Assembly (NCBI GenBank): GCA_003153355.1
Contig: PLYH01000005.1
Coordinates: 97,810 to 161,809 of the forward strand
Length of the DNA: 64,000 nucleotides
DNA from: Candidatus Peregrinibacteria bacterium
GTDB taxonomy: Bacteria; Patescibacteriota; Gracilibacteria; UBA1369
Direction of reading: 5' to 3'
Shown: piece by piece, positions 23,352 through 26,738 of the stretch
Numbering within the stretch: position 1 is the stretch's first letter
Layout: each line of letters opens with the position of its first letter
Program-made: the position numbers and the translations under genes
The notes under the pieces: generated by a model
What the model was told of the DNA's origin: nothing
What the model saw: only the letters and a program-made list of their open reading frames with translations
Databases searched by the model: none

Positions 23352-23361
23352 ATTTTTTCCG

Positions 23362-23380
23362 AAAAAAGATTCGAAAATCC
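23362..23380 (-). terminator. Weak hairpin plus T-run at the end of the putative RNA array
   Basis: Read on the minus strand, GATT-TTCG-AATC is followed by TTTTTT. The stem is short, so this is only a candidate 3' end for the RNA transcribed leftward from about 24603. Confidence 0.35.
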
Positions 23381-23430
23381 CGTTGCAGCTTAGGCCGCAC
23401 CGGGTAAAACTTTTTTACGTTGAGGATTTT

Positions 23431-23706
23431 TATCCCCCTCGAATTTCTGAAACAAAAAGATACTAACCACAACAACGATAAGGAGTTGCGAACAATTACA
23501 TGTGAGTGTCCGAAGACGAAACGTCAGGATACCTGTTCTTTGAATGACTTCAAAACCCATCAAATAAAGACAAGCACGGGAACACTTAGCTGGGCGCTGA
23601 TGTTACCGACCCTTAATATATTCAGAAAATCGAGGGAGGGAGCTGTCTTGAGGACTGAGGGTCAAAATGAACTGACCAAAGCTCAGTCCGAAGACAGCTC
23701 TCTCCC
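23431..23706 (-). repeat. RNA-array module copy C
   Basis: The long hairpin lies at 23706-23634. On the minus strand its arms are GGGAG, GAGCTGTCTT and GGACTGAG against CTCAGTCC, AAGACAGCTC and CTCCC, with an inner GGTCA/TGACC. A GTC-UUCG-GAC hairpin lies at 23517-23508. The tail GAGGGGGAT pairs with a nearby ATCCTC. Confidence 0.6.
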
Positions 23707-23760
23707 GCGATTACTTTTGCTGATTTTCAAAAAACAATTTTTTGCGGACTGAAAAATTTT

Positions 23761-24160
23761 CAGTCCCCCTTAAACTTGACGAGGCAGATTTCAAACATCT
23801 GAACATCTTGGAAATTATTGGTTTCCTCGATAGTCACTTATCGCATTCCATCACTGAAATACAACAGTACCTCTCTCATTTACCGGCATCTTGCGTCTGA
23901 ACCAAAGAACCGAAGTTCCATGAAACAAAAAACGAGGCGTCGATACATGAAGCTCAATCTCTTTTCTCTGCAGCCTGGTCTTTTAGACCCGCCAAGCGAA
24001 AGAAATAAGCACGCTAAGAACCTGGGGGACTCTTAGACGCGGTTTTACTCTCCATCGCGCAAAGCCTAAGGAGGAAGCTGTCAAGGATCTCAAGTATGAA
24101 ACCGACCATATCAATATAACCGATTTGATCAATACCTAAGGTCTTTGACAGCTTTCTCCC
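23761..24160 (-). repeat. RNA-array module copy B
   Basis: The long hairpin lies at 24160-24070, with outer arms GGAGAAAGCTGTCAA and TTGACAGCTTCCTCC. A GAAC-UUCG-GTTC hairpin lies at 23918-23907. The tail AGGGGGACTG (23770-23761) leads into a strong hairpin pairing GGACTGAAAA with TTTTCAGTCC. Confidence 0.6.
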
Positions 24161-24220
24161 TACCTTTGCAATCCGTTTGGAAAGCTTTATTTTGATTTTT
24201 TAAAGAACAATTTTTTATTT

Positions 24221-24564
24221 TAGTCCCCTGAGCGGAGGACCGAACATCGAACCCAAAAGAGAATATGAAATTTCTTTCGTGGAAATGTCCGAAGACATTG
24301 TCCGAAGTGTGTCGGCGAATAAAGTTTGATCCAAAGCCGAAGCGATGAAAGCAAAACTTCATGATGTCGAAACAGTTCATTCGATCTCTTTCTTTAAGCA
24401 CCTGATCTCCAAGCCCATCAAGTGTTGAAGAGAAAGCATACGGAGGAGTTCTGGGAGAACTCTCCAAATGATCCGATCCTACAAACTCAGGAGGAATCTG
24501 CCTAAGACTCTATAACTGATGATGGTGGGACCATGCAGTAGCAAAGTTCCAGGCAGGTTTCTCC
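24221..24564 (-). repeat. RNA-array module copy A (promoter-proximal)
   Basis: The long hairpin lies at 24564-24490, with outer arms GGAGAAACCTGCCT and AGGCAGATTCCTCC and a tip of ATGG-TCCCA-CCAT. An AATGTC-UUCG-GACATT hairpin lies at 24299-24284. The tail AGGGGACTAA is at 24229-24220. Confidence 0.6.
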
Positions 24565-24609
24565 GGAGGTTGAGGTTTTTCTGATTGTCAAAAATCACTA
24601 TTTCCTTAA

Positions 24610-24639
24610 ATTCTATCATATAAAACAAATATCTGTCAA
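24610..24639 (-). promoter_or_regulatory. Strong leftward promoter of the RNA array
   Basis: On the minus strand, a perfect TTGACA (24639-24634), an 18-base spacer and TAGAAT (24615-24610) preceded by TGA (an extended -10). No protein gene lies downstream in this direction before the convergent NUDIX gene. Confidence 0.75.
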
Positions 24640-24762
24640 TACTCAGGGGTGACTTTTTTGATAGACTAAAAGTCGGATTGATCTTTTAAGCGGATTCGGG
24701 TAACTTTTCACTGCAATTTTCGCGTGGGCACGCGGTTTCAAATAGGCTGAAAAATTCAACGT

Positions 24763-24837
24763 GCCGGGATAGCTCATTGGTAGAGCGCTGCCCTGAAGAG
24801 GCAGGCGTACTCAGTTCGATTCTGAGTCTCGGCACCA
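24763..24837 (+). tRNA. tRNA-Phe (anticodon GAA)
   Basis: A full cloverleaf. The acceptor pairs GCCGGGA with TCTCGGC, the D arm is GCTC/GAGC, and the anticodon arm is CTGCC-CTGAAGA-GGCAG with GAA. The T arm is CTCAG-TTCGATT-CTGAG. The discriminator A and CCA are encoded. The SLH gene at 24867 starts 29 bases downstream. Confidence 0.96.
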
Positions 24838-24866: not shown

Positions 24867-26738
24867 ATGTTCAAAAGGAAATATCTTGGACTGGCAGCGG
24901 TTTTGTTGTCGGTTATTGGTTTTCGAATTGCTTCGGCCATAAACTGGAACAGTTTGATTTCCGATCAGCAAAGCTATTTTGAACAGGTCCAGGTGAAGCC
25001 GGACAAAGGACAAAGCTATACCGATAAAGTTTTCGGAACAACCGTCAAAAGACTGACTGACAGCAAGGCCGACGGCATCAACGGAATGGTTCCGGACTAT
25101 TCCAAACGACAGGCCTGGAATATGGACGGAAGCCTGATGATGTTACGGGATGCGGATGGGAATGCCTATCTTTTTGACGGCAAGACATACGCTTTTATGA
25201 AAAAACTTGATGGAGTAGGAGGCGAAGATGTTTTCTGGAGTCCTACCGTGACAAACGAAATCTGGTACAATGATGGGAACACTTTTACAAAATATAATGT
25301 GGACAGCGGCGTGTCTTCTCCGATTTTTCAATTCAGCGATTACGATTTCGCCGACACGAAAGGTGAAGGAAACTTAAGCCGCGACGGACATTACTATGCC
25401 GTAGCCGGGCAAACGTACAATCAAACGACGGGAGAAACTACTTATAAAGATCTGGTTCTTCTTGATGTAACGGCAAAAAAAATCGTGAATAAATTGGCGT
25501 TGCCTGCGGTGCTCGACGGGTTTGACTGGGTTTCTGTTTCGCCTTTGGGAAACTACATCGTCGTGGATTACGCCAATGACGGTACAACCGCTTTTCACGG
25601 CGTGGAAGTTTATGACAGAAATTTTAAACTCCAGTGGCGCAAGCCGATTGGGGCAGGCCACAGCGATCTGGGGGTCGATGAAAACGGAAAAGAGTTTTTG
25701 ATGATGGATTATTACAATTCAGACAGCAACGTCACCCAAATAAAAAAGTTTGATCTGGCGAGCGGTACGGAAACGGTTTTATTGGAATTGTCTCCGGTTT
25801 TTGACATGCACGAATCATGCAGAAATTCCCAATTACCAGGATGGTGTCTGGTCAGTACTTTTGACTATGTCCAAAAATTAACGGCAAGTTCCGGTGACTG
25901 GCTCCCGTTTGAAAATGAAGTCTTCCTGCTCAAAACAGACGGCAGTAAGACTGTCAAAAGGCTCGCACATCATTACAGCAGGAGATATTCCCCTGCTACG
26001 CCAGACAGCGACACCAGTAATTATTTTGCCGAACCCCATGCCACGATCAGCCCGGACGGCAGTAAAGTTATTTTTGCGAGCAACTGGGAACAAGATATTG
26101 GCGCTACCAATTCCGTGGACACGTATCTGATTGATTTAGGAAGTACTCAGTCGGCCGCTAATCCGCCGCTGGCAAGCCCTTCACCTCCCGCACCGGCACC
26201 GGCGCCATCGCCCTCGCCCGTAAGCGGTCAGATTTTTACAGACGTTCAGGCCGGCGATGTCGGCTCCGATGCCATCCAATATTTAAAAGATAATCAAATC
26301 GTTGCGGGTTATTCGGACGGCTCCTTCCGCCCAGACCAACCGATCAACAGGGCCGAGTTCGTAAAAATAGTAGTGGGCATGGTGTTGAAAAAATCCGGCG
26401 CTCTGCTCGACAGTGATTTTAGTTTAAACGGGATTGCGTTCAGCGATGCTGAAAACGGACAATGGTATATCCCTTATTTACGGAAAGCCGTTTCATCAAT
26501 GCTGATAGCAGGTTATCCGGACGGAACCTTCCAGCCGGCGAAACAGATATCTTTCGTTGAAGCCGCCAAAATACTGGTCGTGGCCAAAGGCACAGCCGCA
26601 ACAAGCTCCTCAATCTGGTATGAACCGTATGTGAATGTATTGAAGCAGTATAACGCCGTCCCCAGTTCGGTAACGCAGATGGGACAGCAAATCACCAGAA
26701 GAGAAATGGCTGAGATGATTTATTTGCTCAATAAATGA
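24867..26738 (+). CDS. Exported beta-propeller-like protein with C-terminal SLH domains
   Basis: 623 residues with an N-terminal signal sequence (YLGLAAVLLSVIGFRIASA). Residues about 45-430 form a TolB/WD40-like propeller of short repeats, seen as recurring strand pairs such as NMDGSLMMLRDADGNAYLF, DVFWSPTVTNEIWYND, WVSVSPLGNYIVVDYA and ATISPDGSKVIFASNW. A Pro/Ala/Ser linker (about 437-450) leads to three SLH modules: FTDVQAGDVGSDAIQYLK with AGYSDGSFRPDQPINRAEF, then FSDAENGQWYIPYLRKAV with AGYPDGTFQPAKQISFVEA, then a weaker third. SLH modules normally bind secondary cell-wall polymer. It is probably an S-layer-associated surface protein. Its TGA stop overlaps the ATG of the next gene, so the two are translated together. 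Confidence 0.87.
   Translation: MFKRKYLGLAAVLLSVIGFRIASAINWNSLISDQQSYFEQVQVKPDKGQSYTDKVFGTTVKRLTDSKADGINGMVPDYSKRQAWNMDGSLMMLRDADGNAYLFDGKTYAFMKKLDGVGGEDVFWSPTVTNEIWYNDGNTFTKYNVDSGVSSPIFQFSDYDFADTKGEGNLSRDGHYYAVAGQTYNQTTGETTYKDLVLLDVTAKKIVNKLALPAVLDGFDWVSVSPLGNYIVVDYANDGTTAFHGVEVYDRNFKLQWRKPIGAGHSDLGVDENGKEFLMMDYYNSDSNVTQIKKFDLASGTETVLLELSPVFDMHESCRNSQLPGWCLVSTFDYVQKLTASSGDWLPFENEVFLLKTDGSKTVKRLAHHYSRRYSPATPDSDTSNYFAEPHATISPDGSKVIFASNWEQDIGATNSVDTYLIDLGSTQSAANPPLASPSPPAPAPAPSPSPVSGQIFTDVQAGDVGSDAIQYLKDNQIVAGYSDGSFRPDQPINRAEFVKIVVGMVLKKSGALLDSDFSLNGIAFSDAENGQWYIPYLRKAVSSMLIAGYPDGTFQPAKQISFVEAAKILVVAKGTAATSSSIWYEPYVNVLKQYNAVPSSVTQMGQQITRREMAEMIYLLNK

Follow-up and report, generated by a model that had tools for sequence, protein, structure and literature searches.

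The minus strand of positions 23367-24639 of the window, by which we mean the whole 64,000-nucleotide stretch of Candidatus Peregrinibacteria DNA analyzed here, very probably encodes a new family of structured, stand-alone noncoding RNA. Compensatory base changes, a promoter of its own and the lack of a conserved open reading frame coincide at this locus, a combination that points to such an RNA, and we infer that the gene product is transcribed. The RNA lies between a NUDIX gene (PF00293) and tRNA-Phe (24763-24837), in a gap (23352-24762) that had been described as free of genes. Our analysis agrees: open reading frames on the sense strand are mostly near the lengths found in shuffled sequence, the longest being 112 aa with a TTG start against a shuffled mean of 68. 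Conservation of this frame was looked for in relatives and not found, and the frames overall are not conserved. In the direction of transcription only the convergent NUDIX gene comes next, as had also been claimed.

The sigma-70 type promoter, TTGACA-18-TAGAAT with an extended -10 element (TGA), is located at 24609-24639 on the minus strand. The initial annotation had singled it out as a strong leftward promoter, and it is kept across the homologous loci: a scripted search placed TTGACA-17/18-TANNNT ahead of the RNA in 10 of 11 loci, and TTGACT-17-TATTAT was identified by eye in the eleventh (G004). From the promoter position, transcription would start at about 24602; this would leave a putative A/U-rich 5' leader at 24565-24602 (minus strand). 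The usual order of elements is promoter, A/U-rich leader, module 1, module 2, 3' terminal hairpin and terminator, with an A-rich linker preceding the first hairpin (P1) of each module. As a single transcript, rather than processed pieces, the RNA would measure ~1.2 kb in this genome (G000) and roughly 0.55-1.2 kb in its module-bearing relatives.

Each module (~330-460 nt across genomes) is composed of the long P1 hairpin, two neighboring hairpins (P2 and P3) with mutually pairing loops, and further stems. P1 has a conserved base, reading UAGGGAG/CUCCCUA in most modules, and a conserved A.C mismatch. P2 has 9 base pairs and in most cases a CNCCA loop, and P3 has 6 base pairs and a loop starting UGGN'. 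The later stems include one capped by UUCG (G000, G003 and G009) or GCAA (G006, G008 and G012), together with a GGAAA-UUUCC hairpin. Module 1 (~400 nt; 24163-24564, minus strand throughout) begins with P1 (GGAGAAACCUGCC...GGCAGAUUCCUCC; 24490-24564), followed by P2 with CCCA in its loop (24446-24462) and P3 (24399-24424), whose loop contains UGGG and is able to pair with that of P2. It is supported by homologous first modules in other genomes and by a cmsearch match of the module 2 covariance model, R1 (G000:C6:122196-122380, window 24387-24571; E 1.6e-10). Module 2 (~420 nt; 23740-24162) is the best conserved, as seen in its covariation (alignment A8) and in its R1 match (G000:C6:121769-121975, window 23960-24166; E 9.6e-56), this module being a training sequence of the model. 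Its P1, with the conserved A.C mismatch, spans 24067-24162; P2 (CUAAGAGUCCCCCAGGUUCUUAG, loop CCCCA) spans 24014-24036, and P3 (GCUUGG...CCAGGC; 23973-23997) has a loop that pairs with the P2 loop. Further on are the UUCG-capped hairpin (helix 10; 23907-23919) and, near the 3' end of the module, a GGAAA-CCAAUAA-UUUCC hairpin (helix 14; 23810-23826).

The hairpin cores on the minus strand begin at 24564, 24162 and 23709, giving spacings of 402 and 453 nt. The initial annotation had read these as three diverged copies of one module about 405-455 bases apart; the spacing holds, but only two of the three are full modules. What had been taken for the third copy (copy A of that annotation) is a conserved 3' terminal hairpin domain (23631-23709, minus strand; alignment A7), the apical part of which, GGACUGAG...CUCAGUCCUCAAG, is conserved in 9 genomes. 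It is matched by its own covariance model, R2, at 23636-23704 in the window and in 9 of 353 genomes of the class. Its lower stem is P1-like, and it resembles a module only in this base of P1; searches with R1 and with R3 (a model of P2-P3) did not report it as a module. The supposed third copy may have arisen by decay of a third module, or it may have been added later as an extension. The 3' hairpin appears to be the constant element of the RNA and the modules accessory copies.

Directly behind the 3' hairpin of G007, G009, G010 and G011 there is a run of T, so that in these genomes the hairpin itself looks like a terminator, and the transcript of most relatives appears to end at, or shortly beyond, the 3' hairpin. 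In this genome only, a 3' extension of ~230 nt follows (23405-23630, minus strand), with weak P2/P3-like hairpins (CCCA, UGGG) that have no comparative support. Beyond it is a probable bidirectional intrinsic terminator (CCCGGUGC..GCAACGGG with a U-rich tail; 23367-23404, minus strand), which would probably serve both the RNA and the convergent NUDIX gene; it was assigned from sequence because its loop exceeds the length range of the terminator scan. Some relatives have further features in this region. In the 3' hairpin of G006 (L194:2264-2370), GGUUGCCUUUGG could pair with either CUCAAGGCAAC or the downstream CCAAAGGCAACC and so switch between two forms; a degenerate version is present in G008 and G012. 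Another small hairpin, with the loop CUGGUCA or similar, stands between the 3' hairpin and the T run in L193, L194, L195, L054 and L055, and in G001 it comes after the single hairpin of that locus.

That this is a structured RNA had been claimed from the window alone, with covariation named as the test, and covariation was found in every alignment (A3, A5, A7 and A8). In A8, which covers module 2 in six sequences with a structure from RNAalifold, 50 of 122 pairs show double changes, against a mean of 22 over 500 shuffles, none of which reached the observed number, and 8-14 when the partners were slid by 1-3 columns. The proportion of paired cells is 92.4%, a figure that leans towards the structure since this was derived from the same alignment; the double changes are therefore the stronger measure. 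Double changes also occur in 18 of 48 pairs of P1-P3 (A3) and in 12 of 23 pairs of the 3' hairpin (A7). These alignments are small (6-10 sequences), and G007 and G011 are nearly identical. As judged from them, the structure is conserved by compensation. G-U cells in A8 number 111 versus 21 A-C cells, an excess which identifies the minus strand as the RNA strand. The fold is far from chance, with folding z-scores of -10.9 for 23625-24602 and -11.7 for the G010 homologue (20 shuffles each).

The loop-loop contact between P2 and P3 is among the features that vary in a matched manner. Across ten modules (A5, covering P2, P3 and the contact), the first contact pair is C-G in 4, A-U in 3 and G-C in 3, and 97.5% of contact cells pair. 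Within G009 alone, module 1 uses GCCA/UGGC and module 2 CCCA/UGGG, the contact being matched within each module. Because it is matched inside the module, each module appears to fold independently. This contact also bears on whether the RNA regulates mRNAs by base pairing, through exposed loops or through the A-rich linkers between modules. A promoter and terminator of its own would suit such a regulator, as would the linkers before each P1; however, the best conserved loops are already occupied by the internal P2-P3 pairing, and the apical loops of P1 are variable, so that we regard this function as improbable.

The distribution of the RNA is narrow. Homologues were found in 10 other genomes of one family within the Peregrinibacteria lineage, two of them as reduced loci. 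In 59 related genomes, BLASTN picked out five members of the family whose loci share this layout (G003, G007, G009, G010 and G011); R1 recovered the same five among 353 class genomes and added G008 and G012. G006, as well as the reduced loci in G004 and G001, came to light when the region upstream of tRNA-Phe was inspected. A covariance model built from the copies had been proposed as a check, and homologues were indeed found in this way, with R1 built from modules of the module 2 type because MAFFT misaligned the module 1 copies. R3 weakly finds module 1 of G009, which is outside its training set (E 0.0087). Beyond the family, R1-R3 gave no strong match in the 353 class genomes, and across 380 genomes sampled from the phylum R2 and R3 scored strongly only in this genome. 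Several other matches were rejected: weak R3 matches outside the family (E 1e-3 to 0.05 in ~700 genomes) look like chance, and AT-rich BLAST matches at query positions 541-577 are of low complexity. A loose IUPAC pattern run over genome contigs returned at least 117 stretches, nearly all in GC-rich genomes. When 77 pattern and viral loci were rechecked with R1 (a set comprising pattern loci other than L060-L063 and L065-L110), only L111 and L115, on contigs of G011 and G010, held up, and the pattern matches on viral contigs were false.

Module number varies within the family. Eight genomes have two modules (G000, G003, G006, G007, G008, G009, G010 and G011), G012 has one, and G004 has none, keeping the promoter and 3' hairpin. 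G001 has lost the modules and retains the promoter and a single P1-like hairpin; G003 is without the 3' hairpin. Nothing of the RNA was found in G002 and G005. The full RNA is therefore dispensable in parts of the family. The tandem modules of G008 (L055:4130-4913) are 90% identical, including the leader GAAGATCATTGAAATGAAGG, and represent a recent tandem duplication of the whole unit; most other modules share 60-70% identity with one another. Palindromic hairpins, tandem duplication and the loss of modules in some relatives could also be read as a selfish or decaying repeat without function, such as the remnant of a mobile element or a hairpin array. Against this stand the compensatory changes across many helices and the conserved promoter; no second or dispersed copy was found in the same genome, and neither the phages and plasmids searched nor the rechecked viral loci gave a match. 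We consider a functionless repeat very improbable.

Comparison with known RNA classes found no counterpart. The absence of a recognized family, noted in the initial annotation, was borne out when the window and five homologous loci were searched against Rfam 15: no family reached its gathering threshold, and permissive thresholds returned only generic miRNA-type hairpins and chance matches. Literature on structured and noncoding RNAs of Peregrinibacteria, Patescibacteria and the Candidate Phyla Radiation, of which our coverage was incomplete, yielded no description of such an RNA. A riboswitch or other cis-acting leader was rejected, as the downstream gene is either convergent (in G000 and others) or co-directional with a promoter-like sequence of its own; a leader of the NUDIX gene is likewise ruled out by the convergent orientation of that gene. 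A T-box-like reading of the NCCA/UGGN loops was also discarded, given that module 1 of G007 and G011 uses CCC/GGG and that the contact is internal. A promoter of its own, high structure and a single locus per genome would suit a housekeeping RNA that has diverged strongly. RNase P RNA (RF00010, G000:C2:205853-206212) and tmRNA (RF00023, G000:C5:110329-110751) nevertheless have their matches elsewhere in this genome. There is no match to 6S RNA (RF00013) here, and 6S-like RNAs are present at other loci in family members carrying the modular RNA (G003, G007, G009, G010 and G011), making an identity with any of these three housekeeping RNAs barely credible. The 6S RNA candidates of these five genomes and of G015 score 37-46 bits, just under the Rfam gathering score; 6S RNA is probably under-detected in this lineage.

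The neighborhood of the RNA differs among genomes. A divergent tRNA-Phe lies upstream in G000, G001, G004, G006, G007, G008 and G012, and the G003 contig ends in a partial tRNA that is likely to be tRNA-Phe too. In G011 a 742-aa MFS/HEAT gene stands between the RNA and tRNA-Phe, the upstream neighbor in G010 is a methyltransferase gene, and the contig of G009 ends upstream. The gene downstream is convergent and encodes a NUDIX or SNase protein in G000, G003, G007, G009 and G011; in G001, G004, G006, G008 and G012 it is co-directional, encodes a cupredoxin-like protein and has a promoter-like sequence of its own. The product of the cupredoxin-like gene (L055:2849-3796, with the same placement in L054, L193, L194 and L195) is probably a membrane-anchored protein, and its Pfam matches fall just below cut-off. 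In the window, tRNA-Phe adjoins a gene (24867-26738) whose 623-aa product carries two S-layer homology domains. The RNA is constant while its neighbors change, which argues for a trans-acting product.

The neighbors also bear on whether this RNA could serve as an antitoxin, be it in a type III toxin-antitoxin system or in abortive infection. Tandem, loop-paired modules behind one promoter resemble in outline the antitoxin repeats of ToxIN, and like ToxI and CptI this RNA consists of tandem folded units with loop pairing. Type III repeats are tens of nucleotides long; the units here are ~400 nt, about ten times longer, and number only one or two. No toxin gene adjoins them: the NUDIX, SNase, cupredoxin-like, MFS, methyltransferase and SLH neighbors include no type III toxin. 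PADLOC returned an SNase+LTD model, a short match to the NUDIX protein and, for the MFS/HEAT protein, a weak match to CARF, and these do not suggest a defense system. An antitoxin role is thus highly improbable.

We propose instead that the RNA would be a trans-acting, multivalent scaffold or decoy, in which the repeated modules would bind an RNA-binding protein or ribonucleoprotein and module number would tune binding capacity. Taken by itself, this mechanism is a tentative proposal that draws on the layout of the RNA; the identity of the RNA and this mechanism, taken together, form a reading that we favor slightly. The CsrB/RsmZ and 6S RNA decoys serve as a working analogy only: they share a stand-alone promoter and terminator and repeated hairpins, but show no homology to this RNA, whose module is far more complex. 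The purine riboswitch similarly has two neighboring hairpins with pairing loops; the Peregrinibacteria RNA differs in having no enclosing helix and in its position, which offers no downstream gene for control in cis.

The main rival to a scaffold or decoy is an RNA-only assembly that folds by itself and oligomerizes via intermolecular kissing loops. Cryo-EM has shown ROOL, GOLLD and OLE to be homo-oligomers whose subunits are joined through kissing loops and A-minor contacts (PMC12286853), and in some hosts GOLLD lies within tRNA arrays (PMC12286853 and the references listed there). The Peregrinibacteria RNA recalls these ornate RNAs in its size, its noncoding nature, its many helices and its conserved loop-loop pairs, and the P2-P3 contact could equally link identical modules of two molecules. 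However, their covariance models gave no match at the locus, and it shows no similarity to their families. It also differs from them in consisting of zero to two repeated modules with a constant 3' hairpin and in being confined to one Patescibacteria family; a module number of 0-2 among relatives fits a strict stoichiometry poorly. We therefore consider such an assembly unlikely.

To our knowledge, large ornate RNAs are few, and function is known for only a minority of them. While large ornate noncoding RNAs are a known kind, this RNA is outside every described family and is distinct in its modular build; given its conservation and the lack of any Rfam counterpart, a functional RNA of a new kind is the probable identity. 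That it represents a categorically new large bacterial RNA, specific to one small-genome lineage of Patescibacteria and built as a constant 3' hairpin with tandem kissing-loop modules that fold independently and whose number sets the capacity of the whole, is in our judgment evenly balanced. The natural series of zero, one and two modules, together with the fixed 3' hairpin and the re-coded loop contacts, makes its structure and function directly testable without culture. An elaborate RNA is conserved here in a streamlined Patescibacteria genome, in which a noncoding kilobase is costly, and it could count as categorically new should it be shown to have a function or to act in a distinct way.
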